Source of the DNA: Arcobacteraceae bacterium | GTDB taxonomy: Bacteria > Campylobacterota > Campylobacteria > Campylobacterales > Arcobacteraceae | Reading direction: 5' to 3' | Assembly: GCA_028687375.1 (NCBI GenBank) | Contig: JAQUAG010000001.1 | Coordinates: 62,001-126,000, forward strand | Length of the DNA: 64,000 bases | Shown: one piece after another, positions 4,230-64,000 of the stretch | How positions within the stretch are numbered: position 1 is the first letter of the stretch | Layout of the letters: every line of letters begins with the position of its first letter | The notes under the pieces: model-generated | Database searches by the model: none | Seen by the model: only the letters and a program-made list of their open reading frames with translations | What the model was told of the DNA's origin: nothing | Translations under genes and position numbers: made by a program

Positions 4230-4321
4230 CACTACTATAACAATCTCATAAACTAACAAAACACAAATACAAAAAAACAAAAGCATTTGATATTCTTTGA
4301 AAAAATAAAAAGGATTATCAA

Positions 4322-5218
4322 ATGACAACAATAAAAATAGCACTTGAGTGGTTTATAAATCCAGACCATCTTCCTATGATTGCAGGAGTTGAGCTTGGGA
4401 AATACAAGGAAGCTGGGCTTGATGTAAAGATTATCCAACCGATTGAACATTATGATGGTTTTGATGACTTGAAAAGTGGAAAGATTGATATTCACTGTAA
4501 TGAGCCGTTGCATCTTTTTGAACACCATTTTGATGGGTTGAAGTCTATGGGATGTTTTTTTGAAACGAGAGGTGGGGTGATGATGAGGGAAAGTAGTGTC
4601 AAAAAACTAGAGTCAAATCAACCAATTCGTATAACCACACCAGCATCAAATGAAGTGACAAATAAAATAGGTTTTGAAATCTTACGAAGATATGCTCTCA
4701 AAAATGGTTTTACTCTAAATAGGGAAAATGTGACTTTCGTGCAAACTGATTTTTGGCATTTGAACAATATGGAAAATGATGAAAGTTTTGATGGTGCATG
4801 GCTTTGTTTTTATAACTTTGAGGGGATAGAAGCAAGTATGAAAAACTTTCCAAATCTTTTTATAGACCAGTATCTCTCGCCATATCCAAATTTCTCAGCT
4901 TTAGAATTTATGACAACAGATAACATCATAAAAGAGAAAGGGGAAGCACTTTGTAAATTTATCGAAGTAACCAATGAGATGGCAAGTTTTTGTAGAAAAA
5001 ATAGTGATGACGCAAGAAAAATTTATTATAGTTACACAAAAGAGGAGCCATCGCTATTAATGGATAATATCATCAAAGATACAATCCCACGACTTGAAAC
5101 AGATATCAAATCAGATGATATGCGATGGTTTGAGCTTTATAAATTTTTAGAAGAGCTAGAGCTTGTAAATTTGACAAATGAAGAGTACACAAAAATTTGG
5201 GAAACAAAAGGGCATTAA
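4322..5218 (+). CDS. NMT1/THI5-like (SsuA/ThiY fold) protein without signal peptide
   Basis: A 298-residue protein that starts directly with the mature fold of a type 2 periplasmic binding protein: KIALEWFINPDHLPMIAGVELGKYKEAGLDV, where LEWxxNxxHxP is the signature of the ThiY/THI5 pyrimidine-binding family, and later DGAWLCFYNFEG. No signal peptide or lipobox is present and no permease or ATPase gene is adjacent. It may be a cytosolic pyrimidine-binding protein, a THI5-like HMP-P synthase, or a binding protein that lost export. It is preceded by AAAAAGGATTATCAA-ATG, a good ribosome binding site. Family membership is well supported; the function is inference. Confidence 0.7.
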   Translation: MTTIKIALEWFINPDHLPMIAGVELGKYKEAGLDVKIIQPIEHYDGFDDLKSGKIDIHCNEPLHLFEHHFDGLKSMGCFFETRGGVMMRESSVKKLESNQPIRITTPASNEVTNKIGFEILRRYALKNGFTLNRENVTFVQTDFWHLNNMENDESFDGAWLCFYNFEGIEASMKNFPNLFIDQYLSPYPNFSALEFMTTDNIIKEKGEALCKFIEVTNEMASFCRKNSDDARKIYYSYTKEEPSLLMDNIIKDTIPRLETDIKSDDMRWFELYKFLEELELVNLTNEEYTKIWETKGH

Positions 5219-5266
5219 GGATTTTTTCTTTACAATGCTTCAACAAAATCTACAAGAAAGAGTGAC

Positions 5267-5944
5267 ATGAAAATAGTTTTTTTCCTATTAGGGGTAGCAA
5301 GTTTCCTATTTGGTTTCCAAAATAGTATTGGGGTGGCTTATTTGCACTCCCCAACTATCTACACCAAAACAGATGATACAAACACTTTTTTCCCAGCATT
5401 GTTTTATGAAAATGAATATTTTTATTTTAGAGGGATTGAGCTTGGATACAAGTACAATCCAAATATCTCTTTTATCTTAAGACCTAATTTTAATACAAGA
5501 GAGATTGAAGGGTTAGAAGATAAAAAACAAGCATTTAGTGGTGGCGTTGAGTTCACACACAAAATAGATAGCTACAAGATTTCACTCAATCTTTTACACG
5601 ATATTTCAAATGCCCATAATGGAACACAAAGTTCACTAAAACTCTCAAAAACTTTTGTAAACTATCCATTTATCATAACTCCATCTCTTGGAATAGAGTA
5701 CGAAGATAAAAAAGTTACCAATTATTACTTTGGAGTTGAGCCAAATACAACCTATCCAAAATATGAAGCAAAAGAGAGTTTAAGCCCTGTAGTTGGAGTG
5801 ATGGGAATTTATAATATAAATAAAACATATTCTATTTTTCTCCTTGCAAACAACAAATTTTTAAGTAAAAATATTACAGATAGCCCAATCGTAGAAAAGT
5901 CAAATAAGAGTATGATACTAGCTAGCATACTTTACAAATTTTAA
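5267..5944 (+). CDS. secreted outer-membrane-type protein of unknown function
   Basis: The 225-residue product begins with a signal peptide (MKIVFFLLGVASFLFGFQ). The rest alternates polar and hydrophobic or aromatic residues in short strands, and the chain ends in ILYKF with a terminal Phe, the usual end of an outer membrane beta-barrel recognised by the BAM complex. About eight strands would fit the length. I do not recognise a specific family. It is followed after 21 bases by a lipocalin gene on the same strand, so both may serve the envelope. Confidence 0.6.
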   Translation: MKIVFFLLGVASFLFGFQNSIGVAYLHSPTIYTKTDDTNTFFPALFYENEYFYFRGIELGYKYNPNISFILRPNFNTREIEGLEDKKQAFSGGVEFTHKIDSYKISLNLLHDISNAHNGTQSSLKLSKTFVNYPFIITPSLGIEYEDKKVTNYYFGVEPNTTYPKYEAKESLSPVVGVMGIYNINKTYSIFLLANNKFLSKNITDSPIVEKSNKSMILASILYKF

Positions 5945-5965
5945 CCCACCACAAGGAAAACCAAT

Positions 5966-6478
5966 ATGAAAAATTATCTTCTTCTCCTCGCACTATCTCT
6001 TTTTTTTGTAGGATGTAGCACAAAACATCCCCATCTTGAAACAGTCAAAAGTGTAGATATCCAAAAATACAAAGGGACTTGGTACGAGATAGCAAGGTTT
6101 GAGCATTTTTTTGAAAAAGGATGCAAAAATGTTACTGCTACTTATGAGCTAAAAAGTGATGGGGATATCAAAGTTATCAATAGATGTACGATGATTGAAG
6201 ATAATAAACAAAAAGAGGCTTTTGGTGTCGCTTATCCTACAGATGAAACAAACTCTAAACTCAAAGTGAGTTTTTTTAGACCATTTTATGGGGATTATTA
6301 TATTTTAGATGTAGCTAGTGATTATAGTTATGCTCTTGTTGGAGCTCCTAGTAGGGAGTTGCTATGGATTTTAAGTCGAACCAAAACGATAGATGAAAGT
6401 ACAAAAGAGAAAATTTTAGCACAACTTCCAAAATTGGGCTTTGATAAAGAAAAATTTATTTGGACTATTCAAGAATAA
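5966..6478 (+). CDS. blc: bacterial lipocalin lipoprotein
   Basis: The 170-residue protein has a lipoprotein signal peptide with the lipobox FVGC (Cys 17). The lipocalin signature G-x-W is seen in YKGTWYEIARFEHFFEKGC, and the later stretches YALVGAPSRELLWILSRT and LGFDKEKFIW match Blc-type outer membrane lipocalins. Such proteins bind lysophospholipids or other hydrophobic ligands and serve envelope maintenance. Length is normal for the family. The ribosome binding site AAGGAAAACC lies just before the ATG. Confidence 0.9.
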   Translation: MKNYLLLLALSLFFVGCSTKHPHLETVKSVDIQKYKGTWYEIARFEHFFEKGCKNVTATYELKSDGDIKVINRCTMIEDNKQKEAFGVAYPTDETNSKLKVSFFRPFYGDYYILDVASDYSYALVGAPSRELLWILSRTKTIDESTKEKILAQLPKLGFDKEKFIWTIQE

Positions 6479-6552
6479 CCAAATAGCAAAATATCTCTAC
6501 TAAATGTTATCAATTTGCTATAAACTACCTAATAAATTAAAAAGGATACAAA

Positions 6553-6816
6553 ATGTTAAAAGAATTATTATTTACAGGGATTGGGGCGACGATGCTTTTC
6601 AAAGAAAAAGTGGAAAGTGAAATCAAAAAACTAGAAGAGAGTGGAAAACTCAAAACTGATGATGCAAAAAGTTTTTTAGAGTCACTTGAACAAAAAGGGA
6701 AAGATGAAGAGCAAAGAGCAAAAGATGAGATGAAAAAGATGCTCAAAGAGATAATCGATGAACTTGGTGTGGCTACCAAAGAGGATATAGAAAAGTTAAA
6801 AGAGAGTTTAAAGTAA
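6553..6816 (+). CDS. small coiled-coil phasin-like protein
   Basis: An 87-residue, highly charged helical protein with a short hydrophobic start (LLFTGIGATMLF) followed by a long Lys/Glu-rich coiled coil and the ending LGVATKEDIEKLKESL. The LGxATKEDIExL tail is typical of the PhaF/PhaI phasin-like superfamily. It lies three bases before the UbiB-type kinase gene, so the two are almost certainly co-transcribed. Neither a PHA synthase nor other granule genes are present here, so a scaffold or partner role for the kinase is as likely as granule binding. Confidence 0.65.
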   Translation: MLKELLFTGIGATMLFKEKVESEIKKLEESGKLKTDDAKSFLESLEQKGKDEEQRAKDEMKKMLKEIIDELGVATKEDIEKLKESLK

Positions 6817-6819
6817 CCG

Positions 6820-8352
6820 ATGCAACTCTATAGCCCTTTTAGACTCTATCTTACTTTTAGATTTCTTTTTACACTTTTTTTAGTGATAAAGAAAAAAACG
6901 AGTCTTTTGGGGATAAAACCACTAAAACCTAAACAACTAAAAAATACCATCATCATTTTAGGGGCTAGTTTTATTAAACTCGCTCAAGTGTTAGCTACCA
7001 GAAGCGATTTTTTCTCAAAGGAATATTTGGAGGAGTTAAAAGAGCTTCACGATGATATTCCACCTATGAAGCAAAAAGATTTTGAAGAGATTTTTAAAAG
7101 AGTCTTTCCAAATTCTCCATTTGAAACTTTCAATCAAACTCCAATAGCATCAGCATCAATCGGGCAAGTTCATAGTGCCATTTTAGATGGAGCAAAAGTA
7201 GCTGTGAAACTAAGAAGAGTTGGGATAAAAGAAAGAGTAGTAGCAGATATCAAAATCATCTCATTTTTCAATATTATTTTTCGACCACTCTTTTCAAAAC
7301 ATACAAAAAACTCAATTGAAGCGGTTATTGCTGAATTTTCAAAGATGATTTTACAAGAGGTGAGTTTGACTCATGAGGTGGAAAATTTAATTGAGTTTAG
7401 TGAAGTGTATAAAAATTTTGGGATAATCTTTCCAAAACCATATCTTGAACATTGTAACGATGAAACAATAGTGATGAGTTATGAAGAGGGATTTAGGTTT
7501 GATGATAAAGAGAATCTTTTCAAATACAATATTGACTTTAAAGAACTCATAGGAAAATTAGTCAATTTTTACACTACACAAATGCTTATCAAAGGATATT
7601 TTCATGCAGACCCACATCCAGGAAATCTTCTAGTGACTCCAAAAGGGGAACTTGTATTGCTTGATTTTGGAATGGTAAAATCTATACCAAATGAGACAAG
7701 ACTAGCAATCATTGAACTTATCAAAAGTGCAAATGAACAAGACTATGAAAGCTACATCATAGCAAATAAGAAGTTAGGAACAATCGCTTATGAAGCACCA
7801 ATAAGTGAACTAGCAACGTTTACAAAAAAGATGTTTAAGATATTTTCAAATGACAACCTCTCAAGTGAATCGATGCAAAAATTAGCTTTTGAAGTGCTTG
7901 AGGGGACAAAAGATTTACCTTTTAAACTCCCTAGTGATGCAATATATATTTTAAGAGTAAGTGCTATTATTGAGGGGTTGGGGACAACTTATATAGAAAA
8001 CTTCAATGGAGTAAAAGATATTTTACCCATCTTGCAAAAAAATATCCCAAATGCTTTGGGACTTAAAGATAGTTTGCTTGAAAATATAATCGATGAGATA
8101 AAAGATTTGCCAATAGTTGCTAAAAATTTAAAAACCTCGCTTCAAAAAATAGCAAACAATCAACTTGTAGTAGAACTAAATTCTGACCAAATAAGTTACC
8201 TAGAAGAGAAGATTTCTCAAAAAATCAAATCATATATGGTCTCTTTGAGCTTTTTATTTGGTGGGATATTTGTCTATCTTTTGGATAAGGAGTACAAAGA
8301 GATAGCAATCGCACTTTTTGTATTTGGAGTTGCTAGAATTTTTTATAAATAA
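6820..8352 (+). CDS. UbiB/ABC1 (COQ8)-family atypical kinase
   Basis: A 510-residue protein with the ABC1/UbiB order of motifs: FIKLAQVLATRSDFF (the KxGQ region), ASASIGQVHSA (the Ala-rich loop), VAVKLRR (the ATP-contacting Lys), YFHADPHPGNLLV (catalytic loop) and LLDFGMV (metal-binding DFG), then two C-terminal membrane helices. In Proteobacteria this family supports ubiquinone synthesis, but Campylobacterota generally use menaquinone. The KxGQ motif is changed to KLAQ. Kinase or ATPase function in lipid or quinone homeostasis is inferred; the family call is firm. Confidence 0.9.
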   Translation: MQLYSPFRLYLTFRFLFTLFLVIKKKTSLLGIKPLKPKQLKNTIIILGASFIKLAQVLATRSDFFSKEYLEELKELHDDIPPMKQKDFEEIFKRVFPNSPFETFNQTPIASASIGQVHSAILDGAKVAVKLRRVGIKERVVADIKIISFFNIIFRPLFSKHTKNSIEAVIAEFSKMILQEVSLTHEVENLIEFSEVYKNFGIIFPKPYLEHCNDETIVMSYEEGFRFDDKENLFKYNIDFKELIGKLVNFYTTQMLIKGYFHADPHPGNLLVTPKGELVLLDFGMVKSIPNETRLAIIELIKSANEQDYESYIIANKKLGTIAYEAPISELATFTKKMFKIFSNDNLSSESMQKLAFEVLEGTKDLPFKLPSDAIYILRVSAIIEGLGTTYIENFNGVKDILPILQKNIPNALGLKDSLLENIIDEIKDLPIVAKNLKTSLQKIANNQLVVELNSDQISYLEEKISQKIKSYMVSLSFLFGGIFVYLLDKEYKEIAIALFVFGVARIFYK

Positions 8353-8371
8353 GTACCACTAACTAATAAAA

Positions 8372-8394
8372 ATATGTCAAATTGCAATGTTTTT
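8372..8394. promoter_or_regulatory. recurrent motif, copy 1 (TGTCAAATTGCAAT)
   Basis: This copy reads TATGTCAAATTGCAATGTTT and ends 57 bases before the ATG of the ORF6N gene at 8452. A plausible -10 (TATAGT, 8417-8422) lies between. Four more copies stand at similar distances from other accessory genes (9883, 11949, 18548, 25471). The core ATTGCAAT is a perfect palindrome, as for a dimeric regulator. Confidence 0.5.
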
Positions 8395-8451
8395 AAGTTG
8401 AAAAAATATTTCGTGTTATAGTTTGTAAAATCAAACGATAAGGAAACAAAA

Positions 8452-8958
8452 ATGAACTTAACAGTGCAAGAGATAAATAGCAAAATATATGAAGTTCGTG
8501 GGATGAAAGTGATGCTAGATAGTGACTTGGCAAAATTATATCAGGTGGAAACAAGAGATTTAAATAAAGCAGTATTTAGAAATATAAAAAGATTTCCACT
8601 TGATTTCATGTTTGAACTTACTAAAGAAGAATTTGAAAACTTGATGTTCCAAAATGGAACATCAAGTTGGGGTGGAAGGAGAAAGTTACCAAAAGTTTTT
8701 ACAGAACAAGGTATTGCAATGCTTTCATCAGTTCTTAGAAGTGATATAGCTATAGAAGTTAATATATCTATAATGAGAACATTTGTTGCTCTTAGAAAAT
8801 ATGCTCTCACACACGATGAACTTGCAAAAAGACTTGAAGAACTTGAAGCCAAAGTGGAAAAAGGTGAGCAAGTTGATAGACAGATACTCGATGTCCTCAC
8901 TCAACTTATTTCAGAAGAGAAAACAAAGAAATCGACTAAAAAGATTGGGTTTGTGTGA
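8452..8958 (+). CDS. ORF6N-domain DNA-binding protein
   Basis: A 168-residue protein with an N-terminal ORF6N domain, as in phage antirepressor-type regulators: IYEVRGMKVMLDSDLAKLYQVETRDLNKAVFRNIKRFP, then FTEQGIAMLSSVLRSDIAIEVNISIMRTFV. A helical, coiled-coil-prone tail ends in KKIGFV. No phage genes adjoin. Paralogues lie at 8963-9823 and 17959-18489, and a decayed fragment at 9941-10018 ends with the same IGFV. SD AAGGAAAC precedes the ATG. DNA binding is expected; targets are unknown. Confidence 0.85.
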   Translation: MNLTVQEINSKIYEVRGMKVMLDSDLAKLYQVETRDLNKAVFRNIKRFPLDFMFELTKEEFENLMFQNGTSSWGGRRKLPKVFTEQGIAMLSSVLRSDIAIEVNISIMRTFVALRKYALTHDELAKRLEELEAKVEKGEQVDRQILDVLTQLISEEKTKKSTKKIGFV

Positions 8959-8962
8959 GTTT

Positions 8963-9823
8963 TTATCCCAATCTCTCTATCAATGTCTCCACTTCTAAAT
9001 CTATTTTAGAAAATGCAAACCATTTTTTGCCAAGGTCTTTCAAACTTGCTCCGATGTGAAATATCTCTTTGTTATCTAGTATTAAAAATCTATCGTGAGA
9101 GTTTTTGAAAGTTTTTAGGGTGATATTGAAATATTGTTTGGAGTATTTTTCATAGTCAAGTTTGAGTTGCTTTGAAATACTATGAGTATATATCGTCACT
9201 TGAATAGTTGGTACTTTTGAAAATAGAGTAAAAACGGTATCATCGATATAGTTATCTATCAAGATTATCTCATTTTTTGCTCCTCTTAATAAATCATTGG
9301 CAAAAATATAAGCATCATAAATTTGTCCGTCGTAAAATATCCCTTGGGCTGGTTGTAATTGTTTGGATTCTATCGCTTTAAATATTGTGTCAAAATTATT
9401 GTTATGGAGTAAAAGTTGTTGTTCAATCCTGTCAAATCGTTGGAAAATAGAGGCATTGTCTAAGAGAAATTTTCTCATTTGTACAAAACTATTAATAATT
9501 TTGATACTTGTTTGTATTGCAGTATCACTTTTAAGTACAGCACTTAGCATTGATACACCTTGTTCTGTAAAGAGATAAGGCATTTTTCGTAAACCCATTT
9601 TATCAGAATTGGAAATCACAATTTGTGACTTCCAATTTTCAAACTCTTCTTTTGTCAGCTGAAACATAAATTCAAGTGGAAATCTCTCAATATTTCTTTT
9701 GACTGCTTGATTTAAAACTCTATTTTCTACTTGATACAGCTCTGCCAAATCTCTATCGAGCATAACTTGAACCCCTCGTATGGTATATATTTTACTGTGT
9801 ATATTATCGATAATTAGTTGCAT
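8963..9823 (-). CDS. ORF6N-domain protein with C-terminal phospholipase-D-like domain
   Basis: The N-terminal half (residues 1-115) is ORF6N: IYTIRGVQVMLDRDLAELYQVENRVLNQAVKRNIERFP and LFTEQGVSMLSAVLKSDTAIQTSI. The second half (about 165-286) has IILIDNYIDDTVFTLFSK and HDRFLILDNKEIFHIGASLKDLGKKW, which fits a single PLD/BfiL-like HxK(R)-type domain found in nuclease-like proteins. This architecture suggests a DNA-binding protein carrying a possible nuclease or phosphatidyl/nucleotide domain. It is convergent with the 8452 gene, four bases apart. A copy of the recurrent motif sits 59 bases upstream of its ATG. Confidence 0.8.
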   Translation of the reverse strand: MQLIIDNIHSKIYTIRGVQVMLDRDLAELYQVENRVLNQAVKRNIERFPLEFMFQLTKEEFENWKSQIVISNSDKMGLRKMPYLFTEQGVSMLSAVLKSDTAIQTSIKIINSFVQMRKFLLDNASIFQRFDRIEQQLLLHNNNFDTIFKAIESKQLQPAQGIFYDGQIYDAYIFANDLLRGAKNEIILIDNYIDDTVFTLFSKVPTIQVTIYTHSISKQLKLDYEKYSKQYFNITLKTFKNSHDRFLILDNKEIFHIGASLKDLGKKWFAFSKIDLEVETLIERLG

Positions 9824-9882
9824 AATATTTTCCTACTTAGAAATTTTATAACTATATCACAAGTTTTTATTTTGATTTCAAA

Positions 9883-9906
9883 GTATGTCAGGTTGCAATG
9901 TTTTTT
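9883..9906. promoter_or_regulatory. recurrent motif, copy 2 (TGTCAGGTTGCAAT)
   Basis: Reads GTATGTCAGGTTGCAATGTT. It is 59 bases upstream of the start of the leftward ORF6N-PLD gene and also directly precedes, in the opposite sense, the remnant of a rightward ORF6N gene. A possible leftward -10 (TATAGT on the minus strand near 9852-9858) lies between the motif and the ATG at 9823. Confidence 0.45.
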
Positions 9907-9940
9907 GAGTCTTTTTATTTTATGTTTCAATTTTTAGAAA

Positions 9941-10018
9941 GTGGTACAAGTGGTTTCAAGTATGCAAAATATTCAAAATGAAGCAAAAGAGGGGACTAAA
10001 AAGATTGGGTTTGTGTGA
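9941..10018 (+). pseudogene. C-terminal remnant of an ORF6N gene
   Basis: Bases 9941-10018 translate as VVQVVSSMQNIQNEAKEGTKKIGFV followed by TGA (split here: VVQVVSSMQNIQNEA, then KEGTKKIGFV). The first part nearly equals the tail of the ORF6N protein at 17959-18489 (VVQVVSSMQSLQNEAKEKT) and the second the tail of the one at 8452-8958 (TKKIGFV). No start or ORF6N domain precedes it and the frame is broken just upstream (in-frame TAG at 9935). The gene body appears deleted, leaving only upstream motif and tail. Confidence 0.7.
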
Positions 10019-10078
10019 GCTTTAGAATTTCTTTCGTATAATATTTTTAAGTATTTGGGCTGGGGATTTTTCTTTTTG

Positions 10079-10312
10079 CTCGTCCCTTGGTGAGAATTTT
10101 TAAGCCGATTAAAGTCAGCTTTACAGCTTTTCGTAACACCGACTTCAGTCGGTTATTTTTTGAAACAATCGATAACATAAAATCCTCATCTCCAATAAAA
10201 AGTATTAAGAATGAGAAATTTTTGCTCTAGTTCCAAAAGCTTTAGTTTTGGAATTTGTATATTACTTGCTATTTTTATTGTTGTATGCATCCCCAAGTAC
10301 AAATTGGGGACG
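10079..10312. repeat. hairpin-rich non-coding block bounded by inverted CTCGTCCC / GGGACGAG
   Basis: The stretch between the ORF6N remnant and the TPR gene has no credible ORF. It is bounded by CTCGTCCC near 10079 and its exact complement GGGACGAG near 10305. Inside are ACCGAC-TTCA-GTCGGT (10138-10153), TTCCAAAA-gctttag-TTTTGGAA (about 10230-10252) and CCCCAA-gtacaaa-TTGGGG (about 10291-10308). It may be a remnant of a mobile element or a structured RNA; neither is proven. Confidence 0.4.
10138..10161 (+). terminator. Rho-independent terminator
   Basis: Perfect six-base-pair stem ACCGAC/GTCGGT with a TTCA loop followed by TATTTTTT. It would end rightward transcription from the ORF6N remnant side before the convergent TPR gene. 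Confidence 0.65.
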
Positions 10313-10349
10313 AGGGAAAAAAGTTGTGAATTTACTAAGTTTTATATGC

Positions 10350-11885
10350 TTAAATCATTTTCTCTAATGCAGTTATAAAATTTATTATATTTTGTTTATT
10401 TATTGCCCAAACCTTAATATCTGAAAAATCAAAATGAAATTCTTTTTTATCAATTTCAGACAAAAATTTGGTTACTAAAATTTCTTCAATATTATTATTG
10501 TTCTTTAAGTTAAATAGAATAATAAACATTTCTAAATAAAGAATTTGGTCATTGAAATATTTTTTAAAATGTTCAATTATTTCTTCATGTAAAATATCAT
10601 TAGAAATCAGTTTAAATTCGAGAATAGAAAGATAAATTTCATAATTTTCTATATTCTGTTTAGTTAAAACATTAAATATATTATTTGCTTTTTCAAATTT
10701 ATTTTGCTTAAAAAAGCTATAGGCTAGATTATTCAATAAATAAATATCATTTTCAAAATATTTTAATGCATATTGATGTAATTTTTCAGCTTCTTTATAA
10801 AGACTTAATTTAAACAATCCTATACCTAAATTTTGTAAATATATTAGATTTTTAGAATTGTTTTTAGAATAATTTTCAGTTTGCAGTAAAATTTCTTCTT
10901 CTAGATCAGTTAGAATATTTATAATTGCTCTCATATTATGATTTGCACCTTTATGATTTTTATCTAATAGTAATATTTTTTGATATAAGTCAATTGTTAA
11001 ATCATACCGTTTCATTTTTTCATATCTAATTGACAAATTAAATAAAGCATCAACATATTTGTCATTTAAAGTTATTGCTTTTTTATAGTATTCAATTGCT
11101 TCATCAATTTCTTTAAATTCAACTAAACAATTTGCAATATTATTGTAAGCCATTTCACAATTTTTTGAGTTGATTTCAACGGCACGTTTGTATGATTCAA
11201 TAGCTTTATAGAATTTCCCTTGTTCATAAAATGTGTCACCATCAATCATATATTCTCTATATGATTTATAAATTTTCATAGGTTCAAAAGGTAAATTATT
11301 ATTTGTAAATATTTCTTCACTATGTAAAACTTCATAAGCAAATTGTCTAAGCAGTATATAATGATGATTAGTTAAATCTTTAGTAATTTTATGATTGTAT
11401 TCACTTATTGTAAAAGTGCCAAATTGTTTTTTTAAGGGTTCTAAGTCTTTATCCACAATTTCAATATGTGCTCCACCATCTTTATGAGTAGTGATTTTGA
11501 TAATATCATATCTTGAGTAAGATTTATCAGCTAATGTTAGTACATTTTCCTCTAGCCAATCTTTTATAGTAATCAATTCATTTTTATCAGAGTTATTTAA
11601 ATAAGGTCTTTGCCCATCACTTGTCATCATTATTGGTATAGCTGTTACATTTTTCATATTTTTAAACAAAGGGTCTTTTGTTCTATCGGACAAAGTAGAT
11701 AAAAGTTTTATCTTATCTTTTTGATTTAATTGTTTAAACAATGATGGACTCTTGGGGTTGTTATCATAAAACAAAGTTCTTAAAGTTTTAGCTATATCTA
11801 AAGCTTCTTCAATTCTGCTTTTATCGTATAATTCACAAGAATTTTTTAAAAGTTTGAGTTGTTCTTCTAATTTCTGTTTAAGCAT
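10350..11885 (-). CDS. TPR-repeat protein with an unassigned N-terminal domain
   Basis: A 511-residue protein. Residues about 205-320 form classical tetratricopeptide repeats (YEQGKFYKAIESYKRAVEINSKN, AYNNIANCLVEFKEIDEAIEYYKKAITLN, DALFNLSIRYEKMKRYDLTIDLYQKILLLD), and more degenerate repeats follow. The first 195 residues are a separate domain beginning LLKNSCELYDKSRIEEALDIAKTLRTLFYD with a later THKDGGAHIEIVD; the pattern is reminiscent of HEPN-like helical domains in defence or stress proteins, but this is only an impression. A copy of the recurrent motif lies 63 bases upstream, placing it with the accessory genes. Confidence 0.65.
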   Translation of the reverse strand: MLKQKLEEQLKLLKNSCELYDKSRIEEALDIAKTLRTLFYDNNPKSPSLFKQLNQKDKIKLLSTLSDRTKDPLFKNMKNVTAIPIMMTSDGQRPYLNNSDKNELITIKDWLEENVLTLADKSYSRYDIIKITTHKDGGAHIEIVDKDLEPLKKQFGTFTISEYNHKITKDLTNHHYILLRQFAYEVLHSEEIFTNNNLPFEPMKIYKSYREYMIDGDTFYEQGKFYKAIESYKRAVEINSKNCEMAYNNIANCLVEFKEIDEAIEYYKKAITLNDKYVDALFNLSIRYEKMKRYDLTIDLYQKILLLDKNHKGANHNMRAIINILTDLEEEILLQTENYSKNNSKNLIYLQNLGIGLFKLSLYKEAEKLHQYALKYFENDIYLLNNLAYSFFKQNKFEKANNIFNVLTKQNIENYEIYLSILEFKLISNDILHEEIIEHFKKYFNDQILYLEMFIILFNLKNNNNIEEILVTKFLSEIDKKEFHFDFSDIKVWAINKQNIINFITALEKMI

Positions 11886-11948
11886 AATTAGTTCCCTTAT
11901 TTTGGAATTTTTTTAAATTATACTATTAAAAATACACAAAGCAAAATA

Positions 11949-11972
11949 ATATGTCAAATTGCAATATTTTTG
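11949..11972. promoter_or_regulatory. recurrent motif, copy 3 (TGTCAAATTGCAAT)
   Basis: Reads ATATGTCAAATTGCAATATT, identical in its core to copy 1. On the minus strand it supplies TTGACA, a consensus -35, and lies 63 bases upstream of the TPR gene start; TATTTT or TATAAT further on could be the -10. Confidence 0.45.
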
Positions 11973-12117
11973 GATAAATAGTGATTCCTTAGCTTTCAAC
12001 TATTTTTCAAATTCGTTTTATTTATCAAAATTCATCACCATTCCCCTATAAACTCCCATTTTAACACTACCAAACAATCTCTTTTTTTATTACAATAAAA
12101 TAAAAAAGGATTTTGTA

Positions 12118-13179
12118 ATGTCTTGTGTGAAATGTACAGAAAAGTTTCAGCTTCAGTCAATATCTTCAACGATATATTTTATAAGTGAATTTGATGAGCT
12201 TATCCGAAAAAGTTTTTTATTTTTTACGAAACTCTCTTTGGATGTTGTTCTTGATGATGGGGTGGTTTGTTTGAAATATGTTGATGATACGAAGAATTTT
12301 TTTAGAGAAAACATTGATGCTTTAAATGAAACTTTCAATGATATGGAGAAAAATGATATCAAAGTTTTTATCGAAGACGAAAACAATAAATTTAACTACA
12401 AAAGCATAATGAGTGCAAAACCACTTCAAAGATATATCAATCTTTTTCTTGACAAAGAGTTTTTTGATATCATCAATAATGAGAGTTTAACCTCTTATTT
12501 TCAACCGATTATTGATATGAAAACAAATACAATCTATGGGTATGAAACACTGATTCGTGGGGTAAAGGCAGATGGAAGTTTGATGTATCCCGATGAATTA
12601 TTTGAAAAATCAAAAAGAAACGATTTGAACTTCAAACTTGATAGACTTTGTCGTGAAAGTGCTCTTAAAACGGCAGCGACTAAAAAAGTTCATCAAAAAG
12701 TATTTATCAACTTTATCCCAACTTCTATTTATGACCCAGAGTTTTGTTTGGCTTCCACTGAAAAATGGGCGAAACAACTCGAATTTGACCCCTCTCAGAT
12801 AGTTTTTGAGGTGGTGGAAACGGAGCTTGTAAAAGACCAAAAACATCTTAAAAAGATACTTGAATTTTATAGAAGTAAAGGGTATAAAATAGCTTTAGAT
12901 GATGTAGGTGAGGGGTATTCAAGTCTCAATATGCTGATAGAACTTCGCCCAGATATTATCAAAATTGATAGAAATATCATAGATGGAATTGATAAAAATG
13001 AACTCAAACAATCAGTCTATAGGGCCTTGTACAATCTTGCACGTGAGCACAATATCACAGTTTTGGCTGAGGGTGTTGAGACTTTGTATGAGTTGGAGAT
13101 GATACAATCAATTGGGGTTGATTTGGTGCAAGGGTATTATTATGCGAAGCCAACAGCTGAACCGATACGAAAAATTTAA
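12118..13179 (+). CDS. EAL-domain protein, probable c-di-GMP phosphodiesterase
   Basis: The 353-residue protein has no membrane segment. Its first 120 residues begin MSCVKC, a CxxC pair, and are otherwise unassigned. The EAL domain starts at YFQPIIDMKTNTIYGYETLIRG, so the signature reads ETL; the other catalytic positions are kept (Asn of FINFIP, FEVVE, LDDVGEGYSS, IIKIDR, AEGVE, LVQGYYYAKP). Activity is likely but the altered ETL and DDVGEG make it a divergent member. It could instead be a c-di-GMP-binding regulator. Two small conserved genes follow closely. Confidence 0.85.
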   Translation: MSCVKCTEKFQLQSISSTIYFISEFDELIRKSFLFFTKLSLDVVLDDGVVCLKYVDDTKNFFRENIDALNETFNDMEKNDIKVFIEDENNKFNYKSIMSAKPLQRYINLFLDKEFFDIINNESLTSYFQPIIDMKTNTIYGYETLIRGVKADGSLMYPDELFEKSKRNDLNFKLDRLCRESALKTAATKKVHQKVFINFIPTSIYDPEFCLASTEKWAKQLEFDPSQIVFEVVETELVKDQKHLKKILEFYRSKGYKIALDDVGEGYSSLNMLIELRPDIIKIDRNIIDGIDKNELKQSVYRALYNLAREHNITVLAEGVETLYELEMIQSIGVDLVQGYYYAKPTAEPIRKI

Positions 13180-57448: not shown

Positions 57449-58348
57449 ATGACAAAAAATTGGGAATCTACTTTTGCTTCATGGGCACAAGGACCAAGTG
57501 CAACAGAAAAAGAGCGAGCTGAAAATGCAGAAAGACAGATTAGAAAAGCCATTCAAACTAGTGATAAGTTGAAGAATAGAAATATAAAAGTTTTTACTCA
57601 AGGCTCTTACAGAAATAGAGTAAATGTTAAAAAAGATAGTGATGTTGATGTTGGTGTATTGTGTTATGACACATATTTCCCAGAATATCCTGATGATAAT
57701 GTAAAAGCAAAACTTGAGGAAAGTTCTAATTCAGCCACTTATAATTACGCTACATTCAAGAATGAACTTGAAGAAGCTCTTGTAGCATATTTTGGGCAAG
57801 CTGCTGTGACACGTGGTAAAAAAGCTTTTGATATAAAAGCAAATACTTATCGTGTAGAATCAGATGTCGCAGCATTTTTTGAGCATCGACGCTATACCTC
57901 GACTAGTCATTATTTATCTGGTGTAGAAATGATACCCGATGATTTCAACCCTTTCATGATCCGAAATTGGCCAGAGCAACATTACGAAAACGCTGTTAAT
58001 AAGAATGACTCGACGAACAGACGCTATAAAAGAATCGTAAGGATATTAAAATCTCTTTCTAATGAGATGTCATCTAAAGGTATTCAATCCGCTCAAAAAG
58101 CACCTAGCTTTTTAATTGAATGCCTAGTTTGGAACACACCAAATGAATACTTTAACCGTTCCTCCTATACAGCAGATGTTAGAGCTGTACTTGCACATCT
58201 CTTTAATAATACAAAGGCTGATGATAAATGTAATGAGTGGGGTGAAGTTAGTGAATTGAAATACTTATTTAGATCATCACAACCTTGGACCAGGCAGGAT
58301 GCACATAACTTTGTTAGTGATGCCTGGGATTATATAGGATTCGAATAA
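57449..58348 (+). CDS. CBASS cGAS/DncV-like nucleotidyltransferase (CD-NTase)
   Basis: A 299-residue polymerase-beta-like cyclase. The active site is FTQGSYRNRVNVKKDSDVDVGVL (G52-S53, Asp 65, Asp 67) with the third carboxylate in YRVESDVAAFF (Asp 139). The start W-x5-W-x-GPSATEKERAENAE is typical of bacterial CD-NTases. It should make a cyclic oligonucleotide when phage infects. Codon use is less AT-rich than that of the core genes, a sign of transfer. Its stop overlaps the effector start by one base. The product nucleotide cannot be predicted safely. Confidence 0.92.
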   Translation: MTKNWESTFASWAQGPSATEKERAENAERQIRKAIQTSDKLKNRNIKVFTQGSYRNRVNVKKDSDVDVGVLCYDTYFPEYPDDNVKAKLEESSNSATYNYATFKNELEEALVAYFGQAAVTRGKKAFDIKANTYRVESDVAAFFEHRRYTSTSHYLSGVEMIPDDFNPFMIRNWPEQHYENAVNKNDSTNRRYKRIVRILKSLSNEMSSKGIQSAQKAPSFLIECLVWNTPNEYFNRSSYTADVRAVLAHLFNNTKADDKCNEWGEVSELKYLFRSSQPWTRQDAHNFVSDAWDYIGFE

Positions 58349-58980
58349 TGCTTACAAGACTTCATATTTCATCTTTTATTGGGCTCACCATAGCTGTGTG
58401 GCTTATTGCACTTTGGATTCAAGGTATGCCGGTTTTAAGTGCTGATTTCATTAAACCGTTTGGTATTGTTGTAGGTGCTATAACATTAATAGTCACCTTG
58501 TTCAATAAATATGCTTGGTCTTGGATAATTTTTCGAGGTTGGTATGTTAAACGACCAGACCTTAGGGGTACATGGGAGGTTGAGCTAAAAAGTAGCTGGA
58601 TTAATCCTGAAACAAATGAACCAATTCCACCAATCACTGCCTATGCAACAATTAGACAGTCTTTAACATCACTAAGCTTTAGATTGATGACTCTAGAATC
58701 TCGTTCAGTATTGATTGCTCACAGTATTGAATCACAAGAAGAAGATAGTTTATTCAAGTTGGTTGGAGTTTATCGCAATGAACCGAAAATTGAACTTCAA
58801 GGAGACCGTAGTGAAATACATCATGGTTCATTTTCTCTAGAAATACACGGAAGTCCTGTTGTAGAACTTGAAGGCCATTACTGGACAGATCGAGGAACAA
58901 AGGGCAGTATGAAACTCACTAAAAAAATTGCAATATTTTGTGACACTTACAAACAGGCAAAAAGTCAATTTGAAAAATAA
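58348..58980 (+). CDS. Cap15-like CBASS effector (two TM helices plus beta-barrel)
   Basis: A 210-residue protein with helices near 10-28 (SSFIGLTIAVWLIALWI) and 36-54 (KPFGIVVGAITLIVTLFN), then a beta-rich domain beginning RPDLRGTWEVELKSSWINPE and ending HYWTDRGTKGSMKLTKK. This matches the S-2TM-beta / Cap15 effectors, which bind the cyclic nucleotide with the barrel and disrupt the inner membrane. Overlap with the CD-NTase gene makes a minimal type I CBASS pair. No Cap2/Cap3 genes are present. Confidence 0.85.
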   Translation: MLTRLHISSFIGLTIAVWLIALWIQGMPVLSADFIKPFGIVVGAITLIVTLFNKYAWSWIIFRGWYVKRPDLRGTWEVELKSSWINPETNEPIPPITAYATIRQSLTSLSFRLMTLESRSVLIAHSIESQEEDSLFKLVGVYRNEPKIELQGDRSEIHHGSFSLEIHGSPVVELEGHYWTDRGTKGSMKLTKKIAIFCDTYKQAKSQFEK

Positions 58981-59038: not shown

Positions 59039-59740
59039 ATGAAAGAAATACTTTATACTTTACAAGGTTTAGTAATCTTGTTCTCATTAGAACAATACTT
59101 GCGACAGAATAAAAAATGGGACATTGTCTTTGAATATTTAGAAACAGGCTTAAAAGCTTTTATAAATTGGCGTTCTGATGCCAATATTATTGAAGAAATG
59201 AAAGTCATTCCTGATTTATTTTCAAAACTAGCTTTTCTAGCACTTGCATTTATCTTTTTAACAATGTGGTTGAAGATAGACAATATTGCAGTTTTGCAAG
59301 CTTTACTCGGCATAATCATGTTAAGTATTACTACAATTTTCTCTTTTAACTGGGTCTTTAAACATCGTGAAACCATTAAAGAATTCAAACCTGTTATGTA
59401 TATTTATGGTTTAGTAGGATTAATCATTTTAGTGAATATTTTTGTCTCAGAAATATATCCAAGTGATCTTATATCAATAGCGAATCAATACAATTTAACT
59501 ATACCAACAAAATATGAAATTGCCATAAGTTTTCTTTTCTATTTCTCTTTAGCAATATTATCATTTTATGTGTTCATGTGGATGTTTGCTTTAATTTTTC
59601 CGATTTCAATATTGATTATATTGTTTACTACCTCTAAACTATCTGGATATATAAGGCTAAAACTGAATAAACAAAGTTTTATTGGATTGATAGGGGTATT
59701 GCAAATAGTTGTACTTTTTGGTTTATACAAATATACATAA
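59039..59740 (+). CDS. island membrane protein of unknown function (233 aa)
   Basis: Five predicted helices (for example KLAFLALAFIFLTMWL, VMYIYGLVGLIILVNIFV, ISFLFYFSLAILSFYVFMWMFALIF and SFIGLIGVLQIVVLFGLY). No motif recognised. It follows the Cap15-like gene by 58 bases on the same strand but is more AT-rich, so it may be a third component or an independent insertion. Its stop is 16 bases from the stop of the convergent reverse transcriptase gene. Confidence 0.6.
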   Translation: MKEILYTLQGLVILFSLEQYLRQNKKWDIVFEYLETGLKAFINWRSDANIIEEMKVIPDLFSKLAFLALAFIFLTMWLKIDNIAVLQALLGIIMLSITTIFSFNWVFKHRETIKEFKPVMYIYGLVGLIILVNIFVSEIYPSDLISIANQYNLTIPTKYEIAISFLFYFSLAILSFYVFMWMFALIFPISILIILFTTSKLSGYIRLKLNKQSFIGLIGVLQIVVLFGLYKYT

Positions 59741-59756
59741 TCAATATATTATATAA

Positions 59757-61490
59757 TTAAAGTGAAAAATAGTCCTTTTCATCCAAAGTTAAACCAGCTA
59801 AATATAATTTTTCTTTACTATCATATTTACTAAACAATTTTTTTAGCATATTCTCATGCAATGTATTTAATCTTAATGACAATATTTCATCATTGTAAGA
59901 AAAATCATTTAATAATCTTTCTGTAGGAGCTTGTACATTACAAAATAGGAGAAAGTTTTTTATCTGATTGTTTTGTATTTGTTCAATTTCTATACTTTTA
60001 TTCAATAGAATTAATCCATATAAAGATAATACACCTAATGAGTACAGCTGTGTGTTATCATCGGCTTTTAATAATGTTTTGTTGATTTTTGGAAGAGATA
60101 AAGAATTTGCTTTAGATATTTCTACAAATGTTAAAATAGATTTACCACCAATACTTAATATATTTGAAATATCATTTATTATTAAAGCCTCAACGACAGA
60201 TTTTGTTTCAAAAAACTCTTTTGTCGTAGGTATTAAAGGTAATAGCTTATCCTCAAATTCACTTACATCAAATAAATAAATGAGTCTATTTATATAGAAA
60301 TGATACTTTTTAAGCAACACTTTTTGATTCACATTTTGTTCAGATATGGCAACTTTATCCAAAGATTTTAAACTTTCAATATAGAATTTCTTCAACTTTA
60401 TAGCTCTATCTACAAGCTTTTCAACAGTCAAAGATTTTCTATAACTTTTTAAAGGATTATAATAACTTAGCCACTTTACAAAAGATTGCCAGCCACCATA
60501 TCTTGAGTTTATGTAAAGTTTATACACAGGAAGTGAAATTTTATTGTCTTTTAGTTGCTTTTGTATTTCTGATGCAGTGTCTTGCATGGATAAGTAAAGT
60601 TGTATGTCATTGAGCAAGTTAATAAATTCATCATTATGACCAATTTCGCTAGTAAGAAGCTTCCATTCTACTAAATCTAATTCTTGATATTTTTCTTGAT
60701 TTAAAATAGCACCTTTACTTTTAGGTATTTTTTCATCTAAAATAGCTTTTACAAATTCGACATTGTCTTGATTGTCAATAATTACAATATCATCGACATA
60801 TCTAAAATATCTATCTCCAAAAATTTCATACATTTCATTATCAAATGATTTTAAAGTGATACTACCTAAAAGATGACCAATATCAGGATTGACTGGTATC
60901 CCTGATACTGTAACATCAAGAGATGATTTGATGAAATCTAAAATACCACTTTTGATTTTTTCATCAATATTACTTTGTTCGATATAGTTAGAAAAATTTT
61001 CATAAACAAAAGATTTGTCCATACTAGGATAATAATTGCTCAAATCAAAAACAAAAGCCCTTAGATTTGTGTCTTCTGCTAATTTATTTGAGATAGAAAT
61101 ATTTCTGTTGCGATAACCTTTATAGTAGTATGAATAATTATAACTAGCATAATCTTCTGCGAGGTAATAGCTAAAATTTTGTGAATTGTTTTTAAATATT
61201 TCCTCTTTTGATAATATAGACAAAATATATGCTTCCACAAGTAGAGTTGTAGGACTACCTATATAAAAAGTACGATGATTTAACTTATCTTCTTCATCAA
61301 TCTTTTTAAACCATTGATATTCAAAATAAGACCATTTTGATGTTGTAGTTAATTTTCGTTCACAATAGCTTTGTAGCCATTTTAAATTGTGTTGATTATC
61401 AAGTAACAACCTAAGAGCTACATATGTAGCTGGAGAAGTTCGTCTGCTTGAATTAATGGCTCTAAGTGCTATTTTCTTTATATCTATCAT
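59757..61490 (-). CDS. reverse transcriptase of a probable defence operon
   Basis: A 577-residue protein. RT motifs: AFVFDLSNYYPSMDKSFVYE (first catalytic Asp, residue 149), VTVSGIPVNPDIGHLLGSI (motif B, about 195-211), and FRYVDDIVII (YVDD at 231-234). The C-terminal 290 residues are helical and lack group II intron maturase and endonuclease domains and the CRISPR-Cas1 fusion. No msr-msd-like DNA is next to it. It overlaps the preceding gene by 4 bases. It fits the UG/Abi-like defence RTs; the exact class is not assigned. Confidence 0.88.
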   Translation of the reverse strand: MIDIKKIALRAINSSRRTSPATYVALRLLLDNQHNLKWLQSYCERKLTTTSKWSYFEYQWFKKIDEEDKLNHRTFYIGSPTTLLVEAYILSILSKEEIFKNNSQNFSYYLAEDYASYNYSYYYKGYRNRNISISNKLAEDTNLRAFVFDLSNYYPSMDKSFVYENFSNYIEQSNIDEKIKSGILDFIKSSLDVTVSGIPVNPDIGHLLGSITLKSFDNEMYEIFGDRYFRYVDDIVIIDNQDNVEFVKAILDEKIPKSKGAILNQEKYQELDLVEWKLLTSEIGHNDEFINLLNDIQLYLSMQDTASEIQKQLKDNKISLPVYKLYINSRYGGWQSFVKWLSYYNPLKSYRKSLTVEKLVDRAIKLKKFYIESLKSLDKVAISEQNVNQKVLLKKYHFYINRLIYLFDVSEFEDKLLPLIPTTKEFFETKSVVEALIINDISNILSIGGKSILTFVEISKANSLSLPKINKTLLKADDNTQLYSLGVLSLYGLILLNKSIEIEQIQNNQIKNFLLFCNVQAPTERLLNDFSYNDEILSLRLNTLHENMLKKLFSKYDSKEKLYLAGLTLDEKDYFSL

Positions 61491-62401
61491 TTGTCTTGCC
61501 CATCTATAATTAATCTTAAGCCAGATATATTGCCTCTTAGCTCATTTAAAGAAGTTGGATGAATAAATTTAAATTCTCTTGTTGAAATTTCACAGGCATC
61601 GCTATTTGAATCAGTAAATTGTGCCCAAAGTTTTTTGATTGAATCGATTAACATTCCAATTTTTACAAATAACTTTTCTGCTTTTTTAAAATTTCCAGGT
61701 TCTATCCACAAAATAGTAGAATTTTTGCCGATGGTAGCAACATAGTCCAAAACAGTACGGAATGAATCATCAAAATTATTATTCGTACCTGTAGCACCTG
61801 AAAAATTAGAAAAAAATACAAAATGTTCATCTGCTTGAGTAGTAAAAAATTGATGCATTAATTTCATTGTCTCAGTGTTACTTGTGGCATCCCACTGTTG
61901 TGTTGAGTATGATATATTAATCCCAACTCTCAACAACTCTTTCGATATTGAATTCATCATTTCAGTAAAAATACTTAAAGCATCACTTGAATAATCAGCA
62001 CCTATAATTTCAATATTTAATGGCAAAGTTGGATAATACTTGTGTTGTCTTAATGTAAAAAAAGTAGTAAGTAAACCAACCAATCCTGCACCGCTTCCAC
62101 ATGGCAAATATAATATCTTTAAGGTTTTATCTGAAAATACAGTCGCTAATTGTGATGCAATATGATTTAAATCTCCATCTGGATTTATCACAACATACTG
62201 TGATCTTACAGCACCATTTGGGAATCTTCCTACAAAATGATTTATTGCTTCATCTTCCTCATTCCCACCTATTGAACCTTGCAAATTTACTTTTGATTCT
62301 TCAAATTTACCAAGTGCATTTAACTTATCAATATATGATTTTATTAATAGTGGTGATAGTTTTAACTGCTTATTTTCAAATAGGTCTGATGGAATTTTCA
62401 T
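61487..62401 (-). CDS. Rossmann/methyltransferase-like protein of the RT operon
   Basis: A 304-residue protein. TLKILYLPCGSGAGLVGLLTTFF followed by LNIEIIGADYSSDALSIFTEMM resembles motif I and the acidic motif II of SAM-dependent methyltransferases, and STILWIEPGNFKKAEKLF could be a later strand. The first loop reads PCGSGAG, not the usual DxGxGxG. It could methylate a nucleic acid or protein or only bind a nucleotide. Four-base overlaps on both sides place it firmly in the operon. Confidence 0.65.
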   Translation of the reverse strand: MKIPSDLFENKQLKLSPLLIKSYIDKLNALGKFEESKVNLQGSIGGNEEDEAINHFVGRFPNGAVRSQYVVINPDGDLNHIASQLATVFSDKTLKILYLPCGSGAGLVGLLTTFFTLRQHKYYPTLPLNIEIIGADYSSDALSIFTEMMNSISKELLRVGINISYSTQQWDATSNTETMKLMHQFFTTQADEHFVFFSNFSGATGTNNNFDDSFRTVLDYVATIGKNSTILWIEPGNFKKAEKLFVKIGMLIDSIKKLWAQFTDSNSDACEISTREFKFIHPTSLNELRGNISGLRLIIDGQDK

Positions 62402-63276
62402 TTTATTACCTCAAATTTAAATTCTTTTGGATTTTCATCGTGAGGATAAAAACTTTTTATTTTATACACGACTGTTGTAAAAGGCTCATATATTTTGATA
62501 GCTTTTTCAATATCAAATCCCATTAGCCAATTACACTCAATTTCTAGCTCATCTTTATACTTTATTGCAAATAATTCTGTTTCATCAATAACTTCTAGAA
62601 CACTATCATTTTGAACTACACTTTTGACATATTCAAAAAAACTTTTATCAATAAAAAAGTTACTGCCATCTATCCCTGCTTTTGAACCTAAACTTTCGAT
62701 AATATAAGACTTAGATAAAGCAGTATTCATTTGTAGTGGTCGAGGATTATGCATTAATGCATAATCCCCAGTATTTATAGCTAACTGGGATTTTTGATTT
62801 TTGTCTTTTTTTGTATAGTTATAAACTAAATCATCTACTGTAATTTCATCTAAAAAACTATTGAATCTCTCTCCATAGGATAAAACTGTTCTAGCTCCAA
62901 TATTATCGTTTTTATTTACATTCACATGTGAGATAATAATATTTCTAATCCACATTGAAATTTCGAAGAGTTGATTAATCATCGCAGTATCTCTCCAAAC
63001 TAATGGTATTGTCCTTACAATCCCATCATTTAAAATAAAAATGTACTCATTTATAGAAGCAAAATTAAGATAATGATGTCGATAAAAGTTTTTTAGTCTT
63101 AAGTCAATTTGTTGCCATTTTTCATAATCTAATTCCCATTGATTTTTATAAAAGTCTTTGCCAAATCCTAGTAAATCACTCCAAACTGTTAAATTTTTAA
63201 TAATCTCAAATTGTTTATTTTGAGATTTTTTATCTTTTTCATCTAGTCCTGAAAAATATTCCATATTCTCTGTCAT
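62398..63276 (-). CDS. unrecognised protein of the RT operon (292 aa)
   Basis: Sequence landmarks are VWSDLLGFGKDFYKNQWELDYEKW, FASINEYIFILNDGIVRTIPLVWRD, GARTVLSYGERFNSFLDEITVDDLVYNYTKKDKN, and PRPLQMNTALSKSYIIESLGSKAGIDGSNFFID. No known catalytic motif. The strongly patterned, Gly-containing blocks suggest a conserved family rather than a decayed gene. It abuts the upstream stop codon (TAAATG) and overlaps the next start. Confidence 0.65.
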   Translation of the reverse strand: MTENMEYFSGLDEKDKKSQNKQFEIIKNLTVWSDLLGFGKDFYKNQWELDYEKWQQIDLRLKNFYRHHYLNFASINEYIFILNDGIVRTIPLVWRDTAMINQLFEISMWIRNIIISHVNVNKNDNIGARTVLSYGERFNSFLDEITVDDLVYNYTKKDKNQKSQLAINTGDYALMHNPRPLQMNTALSKSYIIESLGSKAGIDGSNFFIDKSFFEYVKSVVQNDSVLEVIDETELFAIKYKDELEIECNWLMGFDIEKAIKIYEPFTTVVYKIKSFYPHDENPKEFKFEVIK

Positions 63277-63999
63277 TTAATTATCTTTCATATTCCATAA
63301 TTGTGGAAATACAGGCATTCTAAAGTGTCTATTTGATATTAAAATTAAAGGAAATAATCCGTGTTTAACACTTGATAAGTTTTTAATATCAATAAAATTG
63401 TCACTATCATGAATTTCTTCCATTAATTTGGCAAAATCTTTAGGATGTTTGTGTATTGTAATTGGGGCTTCAGCATATCCACATTTATATGCGGCATTAG
63501 ATATGTACATAAATTTTTCTATATCAACATCAGGATACCAGATTTGTAGTGTTGATTTTTCATAAATTTCTGTTGATACATGATGAATAAATTTATAACT
63601 TTCGATTAAGCCAAGTGATATACACCATTGAGCCAAGATTGGTAACATTGTTGAAGTTTGAATATATTCTTCTTTATTTGCACCATCTTTTAAATTGAGT
63701 TCTACTAACTCATCAAAATTATCAGAATCAATTGGAAAATATTTCCCTTGAGCATTATATGCAAATTGTATATGAGAAATTAAATTACTTATCCATTCAT
63801 CTATAAAATCAATTTCATTCCATAAATTTAAGAGCAATATTGCCAATGAAATATCAATGATATGCTCATCATACACGGGGTTATACATAGCTTTATGATT
63901 TTGGATGTATATTTTTAACAAGCTAGATATATGTTGAGAGTAATTTAGATATTCTTTGTTTTCAGTTTGAAAACCTGTAAAGTAACATAAATGACCAAG
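63277..63999 (-). CDS. unrecognised protein of the RT operon, 5' end cut by the window
   Basis: The frame is open to the right edge (its first visible codons read LGHLCYFTGFQTENKEYL), so this is the C-terminal part of a larger protein; a TTG at 63921 is not a credible start. The visible part is helical: VYDEHIIDISLAILLLNLWNEIDFIDEWISNLISHIQFAYN, GKYFPIDSDNFDELVELN, and the ending RHFRMPVFPQLWN. No enzyme motif seen. It is first of the visible operon genes and abuts the next without a gap. Confidence 0.6.
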   Translation of the reverse strand, partial: LGHLCYFTGFQTENKEYLNYSQHISSLLKIYIQNHKAMYNPVYDEHIIDISLAILLLNLWNEIDFIDEWISNLISHIQFAYNAQGKYFPIDSDNFDELVELNLKDGANKEEYIQTSTMLPILAQWCISLGLIESYKFIHHVSTEIYEKSTLQIWYPDVDIEKFMYISNAAYKCGYAEAPITIHKHPKDFAKLMEEIHDSDNFIDIKNLSSVKHGLFPLILISNRHFRMPVFPQLWNMKDN

Positions 64000-64000
64000 T

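Follow-up and report, generated by a model that had tools for sequence, protein, structure and literature searches.

At the end of the window, the 64,000-nucleotide stretch of Arcobacteraceae DNA analysed here (positions 62001-126000 of contig C40), a reverse transcriptase (RT) gene closes a tight run of genes on the minus strand, and the question that this locus raises is which of these genes belong with the RT and what they might do together. A preliminary description had taken four of them, the RT, a methyltransferase-like protein (MT), an unrecognised protein (X) and a larger protein cut by the window edge, as one undescribed defence operon. The open reading frames (ORFs) it gave, the intact YVDD motif, the two 4-base overlaps (X/MT and MT/RT) and the abutment of X and the cut ORF with a gap of 0 were all exact, but the genes do not form one system. 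We found two stacked systems, Olokun and a separate unit consisting of MT and an RT of the UG36 group (UG, unknown group). The RT group and Olokun were already known; the constant MT partner of UG36 is named as part of a defence system in none of the curated libraries searched, and an earlier mention of it is possible.

A UG36 reverse transcriptase and its constant partner

The RT (59757-61490, minus strand, 577 amino acids) matched the PADLOC RT_UG36 profile over residues 5-573 with 394 bits (E 3.2e-118), compared with 51 bits for the runner-up, UG17. By its sequence it is a clear member of an already catalogued group and not an undescribed RT: it is a full-length counterpart, with YVDD intact, of the UG36 entry in PADLOC-DB 2.0, a library that models the RT alone with no MT. 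An RT-core tree that included labelled UG17, UG19, UG9, UG5-nitrilase, DRT3a, DRT3b, DRT4, RT-Cas1, group II-like and retron RTs as references (DRT, defence-associated reverse transcriptase) recovered UG36 as a single clade with the window RT inside it (branch support 97/89; 96% of bootstrap trees). The catalytic YVDD residues Y231, V232, D233 and D234 (60789-60800, minus strand) were invariant in 35 of 35 UG36 RTs; D149 was invariant too. The AlphaFold2 model of the RT (predicted local distance difference test score, pLDDT, 91.1) consisted of a fingers/palm RT domain and, after it, a long C-terminal region that is all-helical. Its closest folds in Foldseek were AbiK (the best), AbiA, Abi-P2, DRT6, DRT4 and DRT9; template modelling scores (TM-scores) were a modest 0.3-0.45 for AbiK, AbiA, Abi-P2 and DRT6. 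The nearest PDB sequence was 9wy8, which is DRT6.

Genuine full-length UG36 members occurred in 5 of 397 Campylobacterota genomes, and a scan of GTDB representative genomes yielded 31 long UG36-like loci (roughly 400 residues or more) from Campylobacterota, Pseudomonadota, Planctomycetota, Verrucomicrobiota, Chloroflexota, Acidobacteriota, Bacteroidota and others. We found UG36 on one plasmid, pAFAEC of Aliarcobacter faecis, and found no match among 50,697 phage records, while IMG/VR gave only non-UG36 relatives of the RT. The literature searched, which did not include the survey that we believe introduced these groups, contained no mention of UG36 as an RT group.

MT (61487-62401, minus strand, 304 amino acids) lay directly upstream of the RT and on the same strand at all 35 distinct UG36 loci with upstream DNA, which span several phyla. 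The most common spacing was the 4-base overlap (18 of 34 loci), with most of the remainder having another overlap or a near-zero gap; several of the longer overlaps are an artefact of over-long start calls. This association was exclusive as well as constant, as the MT profile found 5 of the 397 Campylobacterota genomes, the same five that carry the UG36 RT, and each time beside the RT. The two proteins have also co-evolved, with distance matrices that were closely correlated (Mantel r = 0.946; a value this high arose in 0 of 2000 permutations), and the correlation was 0.916 among pairs whose RTs were less than 50% identical. Ratios of nonsynonymous to synonymous substitution of 0.09-0.26 in seven pairs indicated purifying selection on both RT and MT, and because the RT catalytic residues are all intact besides, these genes are more than chance ORFs. 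At one locus (L037), MT and RT stand alone, behind a divergent gene 183 nt away. The expectation that the partners of the RT would recur beside it elsewhere therefore held for MT at every locus tested, and failed for X and for the cut gene.

We identified MT as a class I S-adenosylmethionine (SAM)-methyltransferase-like protein, for which SAM binding and methylation are predictions from its model and sequence. The AlphaFold2 model (pLDDT 87.5, predicted template modelling score 0.90) had the element order of a class I methyltransferase, a Rossmann topology with a C-terminal beta hairpin, and a Foldseek search with it returned mostly methyltransferases (UbiG, glycine N-methyltransferase, METTL6) at E values of about 1e-6 and with low TM-scores. 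The predicted SAM-binding motif I (YLPCGSGA, residues 98-105; 62087-62110, minus strand) contains two glycines, G102 and G104, that were invariant in 32 of 32 members, and the acidic residue that ends beta-2, at position D136, was D or E in all 32. Across the same members W170 and E234-P235 were invariant, and D171 was retained in 29. None of PADLOC 2.0, Pfam and NCBIfam models the MT family, and no component of a described DRT matched it there; a PDB sequence search with MT gave only noise, in the form of envelope-protein matches at E values of at least 0.26. The earlier statement that the partners match no described DRT held for MT; the cut gene is OloB of Olokun.

The profile of another catalogued group, UG35 (938 positions), matched MT near its N-terminus, over positions of about 22-184 in the best case (E 1.4e-11), and RT domains over positions of about 346-665. 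Because this profile matches both proteins, with the MT part ahead, UG35 is probably MT and RT fused, as judged from the profile. UG35 would then be one protein, whereas the window has separate overlapping genes and an RT that belongs to UG36. In Campylobacterota, a search aimed at true UG35 proteins was negative.

Priming, template and the candidate role of MT

We consider the best reading of these observations to be an autonomous two-gene DRT, whose UG36 RT would make protein-primed DNA and thereby control a methyltransferase effector, and we give this reading a probability of about 0.45. What the sequences show is the two-gene unit itself, with the conserved features described in this text; its defence function, the priming, the absence of any template and the effector role of MT are inferred. 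The RT would make single-stranded DNA primed on a Ser or Tyr at its own C-terminus, and would do so without a dedicated neighbouring non-coding RNA (ncRNA) template, as in the Abi RTs and DRT1. The state of the resulting RT protein-DNA adduct would gate MT, and MT would act as a growth-arresting effector when a phage disturbs DNA synthesis.

Protein priming is suggested by a conserved hydroxyl tail that resembles those of DRT9 and DRT10. All 35 UG36 RTs, one of which (L066) may be a truncated sequence, had S, T or Y within their last five residues, with a mean of 2.3 such residues compared with 0.8 expected, and the tail of the window RT, Y-F-S-L (residues 574-577; 59760-59771, minus strand), holds the candidate priming residue or residues. 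Priming in DRT10 starts at the C-terminal Ser456 or at a Tyr, and DRT9 uses its C-terminal Tyr496/Tyr498 for it (PMC12632851, PMC12483538). The proposed control of a partner protein has its precedent in DRT1 (Class 3, RT-nitrilase), where template-free protein-primed synthesis controls the fused nitrilase (PMC13275509). MT-RT would in this respect be a split version of DRT1, from which it differs in that the UG36 partner is methyltransferase-like and encoded by a separate gene. In combining an RT domain with an all-helical region behind it, the UG36 RT also resembles AbiK, AbiA and Abi-P2 (Class 1) and DRT6; these belong to other RT groups, their similarity to the UG36 model stays within the TM-scores given above, and the obligate MT partner sets UG36 apart from them.

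Several points weigh against this reading. The runner-up PADLOC profile, UG17, is that of DRT10, a Class 2 enzyme templated by an ncRNA, and the RT-core tree, with several long branches, did not resolve the sister group of UG36. A terminal Ser or Tyr is no proof of priming, and the last four residues of the RT were of low confidence in the AlphaFold2 model. Many other UG36 loci have intergenic space able to hold an RNA. Concerning MT, residue 98 of motif I (62108-62110) is Tyr in the three Arcobacteraceae members, compared with Asp in 28 of 32, and this Tyr may matter for SAM binding. Finally, none of the 32 MT members reached the gathering cut-off of a Pfam methyltransferase family (best E 0.0038, with matches in 2 of the 32), and because all of these cut-offs were missed, the assignment of MT to the methyltransferases rests on fold and motifs.

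Some of these points would be accounted for if UG36 were a Class 2-type, ncRNA-templated DRT like DRT10 (UG17 RT, SLATT protein and ncRNA), with MT as the effector or modifier where DRT10 has SLATT, and with an RNA that acts in trans, lies within the coding region or has diverged too far to be recognised. We regard this alternative as doubtful. Besides the second-best profile, UG36 shares with DRT10 a C-terminal Ser/Tyr and two translated genes per operon; many other loci have intergenic room, and there was short upstream conservation in two close pairs (110 nt at 80% in L037/L039; 169 nt at 76% in L059/L065). Between distant loci, upstream DNA matched only once (L051/L055); this match seemingly lies inside a neighbouring coding sequence and was not taken as a candidate ncRNA. 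DRT2, DRT9 and DRT10 each require a neighbouring ncRNA. However, there is no space for one in the window, where X, MT and RT overlap and only 16 nt separate the RT from the convergent gene, or likewise at L050, and the block common to the window and A. faecis included no flanking non-coding DNA. An Rfam scan of L003, the extended locus (C40:118000-137900, where position p corresponds to window position p + 55999), detected no RNA family at E 0.5 or better over positions 1000-12200, and synonymous-site windows across MT and RT showed no consistently depressed stretch. The RT differs from that of DRT10 by about 340 bits in favour of UG36, by its length (577 compared with 456 residues) and by its longer all-helical C-terminal region, which fits AbiK, AbiA and DRT6 best, and its partner was MT-like at every locus instead of SLATT. 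A retron was also considered and rejected, as there was only a weak RT_VI profile match (E 0.002) and no Rfam RNA of the msr-msd type at the locus.

A second alternative, which we judge rather unlikely, keeps the two-gene unit and reverses the roles: MT would not be the killer. It would methylate the RT, its DNA product or a nucleic acid of host or phage, serving as licence, antitoxin or sensor, and the effector would be the RT-DNA adduct itself. The conserved SAM site would be expected of such a modifier, a modifier or antitoxin would also be consistent with the translational coupling and with the strict co-occurrence, and the DNA product of DRT9 alone can drive abortive infection. On the other hand, no acceptor motif was identified in MT, and its motif IV region reads N/A-F-S-G and not (N/D/S)PP(Y/F) as in DNA amino-methyltransferases. 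By analogy, the other multi-gene DRTs, which use their partner as the effector, would favour the same role for MT in the two-gene reading.

Olokun, X and the other neighbours of the unit

The DNA beyond position 64000 completed OloB and revealed OloA, so that the run comprises at least five genes, OloA-OloB-X-MT-RT from upstream to downstream on the minus strand. The cut ORF, which starts at 63277 and reaches 64000 within the window, extends past the edge to about window-equivalent 64929-64950; the complete protein matched PADLOC OloB (E 7.8e-149), the part inside the window being its C-terminal portion. The next gene is OloA (window-equivalent 64944-66653; L003 8945-10654; PADLOC E 1.5e-52). 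As the cut protein matches OloB and the next gene is OloA, the upstream half of the run is Olokun, which PADLOC lists and which is known as a phage-defence system of two genes. The pair fits it in gene order and length, and is a neighbour of the RT unit, not a part of it. The OloB start may be weakened in this genome. Relatives begin MKLIIKEYL, whereas here the conserved ATG is replaced by ATT (L003 8930-8960; window-equivalent about 64929-64959; ATT AAA CTA ATT ATA AAA GAA TAC TTG), and because the ATG is missing, translation must begin at this ATT or at the later TTG.

The comparison with A. faecis located the boundaries of the unit. The MT and RT proteins of the two are 94-97% identical, and a block of 96%-identical DNA begins 9 nt ahead of the MT start and ends at the RT stop; beyond it, the two have only the upstream restriction-modification (RM) genes in common within the stretch compared. 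The slot between the RM genes and MT contains OloA-OloB-X in the window, the Lamassu genes LmuA-LmuB in A. faecis and two unrecognised genes in A. vandammei. On the A. faecis plasmid pAFAEC, LmuA-LmuB lie at L119 11547-14384, between HsdS and MT-RT, so that the interval from the type I RM genes to UG36 appears as a site of defence gene swapping. Olokun was found with no RT nearby in three other Campylobacterota genomes (G396, G264, G379) and on two plasmids. X (62398-63276, minus strand, 292 amino acids) has no PADLOC, Pfam or NCBIfam family and is a neighbour outside the RT unit; the sole further copy found, 78% identical, was part of a type I RM locus of G106, and the 17 kb examined there contained no RT. 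At L114 7917-9463, where this RM locus ends, that copy follows a 219-amino-acid gene and overlaps it by one base; X may belong to a small RM-associated cassette. Because the contents of the slot swap, Olokun and X recur without an RT and the shared block ends at MT, we conclude that independent cassettes are stacked in what looks like one operon.

This conclusion leaves the MT-RT reading two further competitors. MT-RT could be an add-on cassette that couples translationally to any upstream defence operon (RM, Olokun or Lamassu) and boosts it, as the defence genes that MT overlaps on its upstream side are unrelated to each other in the window and in A. faecis, and at L050 the overlapped gene encodes a DinG-type helicase; however, many loci lack a close co-directional upstream gene, as does L037 with its divergent neighbour, and we find this quite improbable. 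The single five-gene system that the preliminary description would imply, for which the common strand and the overlaps or near-zero spacing speak, is very improbable, since none of OloA, OloB and X stood beside the RT in any UG36 locus examined other than that of the window genome, so that the four genes searched for as one system were rejected, since Olokun occurs alone and Lamassu fills its slot in A. faecis, and since homology stops at the MT start.

That description was right about a UG-type RT in a defence island and about a conserved partner protein beside it. On the upstream side, OloA shares 1 base with the stop of a type I HsdS gene, and past OloA come HsdS, an AlbA/Schlafen-like protein, HsdM, HsdR and a GmrSD-type protein. 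The AlbA/Schlafen-type ATPase-like gene (L003 12097-13563), between HsdM and HsdS, is shared by the window genome and A. faecis and is absent from A. vandammei. On the other flank, convergent with the RT, is a cyclic-oligonucleotide-based antiphage signalling system (CBASS), which consists of a CD-NTase cyclase (57449-58348, plus strand; PADLOC Cyclase E 5e-132) and the effector Cap15 (58348-58980, plus strand; Pfam Cap15_CD_rec E 3.9e-17; PADLOC 2TM effector E 3.3e-88). Behind Cap15, a gene whose end is 16 nt from the RT stop (59039-59740, plus strand) encodes a 233-amino-acid protein that is hydrophobic by eye and predicted to be a membrane protein; it matched no family in PADLOC, Pfam or NCBIfam, and is possibly a third CBASS gene. 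Downstream of the RT, A. faecis (L034 11629-11811) and A. vandammei (L035) have in common a 182-nt stretch (90%) that overlaps an opposite-strand gene of 245 amino acids in A. vandammei and seems to be a remnant in A. faecis; the window lacks it and has CBASS there instead. UG36 loci elsewhere adjoin DISARM DrmA, DrmMI-like or type IIG methyltransferases, type I restriction enzymes and a DinG-type helicase, and these defence neighbours support, by association only, a defence role for UG36.

Implications for the defence-associated reverse transcriptases

Correcting the boundaries of the unit matters in practice, as using the four-gene operon as a search seed would mean looking for a system that does not exist. 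In contrast, MT-RT is small (about 2.6 kb), has no visible need of an ncRNA and is directly clonable, so that the role of the DNA made by its RT becomes testable.

Among the described DRTs surveyed, the partner or effector part is a nitrilase in DRT1, a SLATT membrane protein in DRT10, a second RT in DRT3 and, in DRT2 and DRT9, the cDNA and the gene encoded by it. A methyltransferase that is never parted from its RT would add new chemistry to this set. More tentatively still than the two-gene reading itself, UG36 may represent a distinct DRT class, in which a self-primed, template-free RT carries a DNA adduct that switches on a dedicated SAM-dependent methyltransferase, acting through methylation or SAM depletion, with the two proteins fused in UG35. 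The constant MT partner also predicts that UG35 and UG36 would be one functional group.

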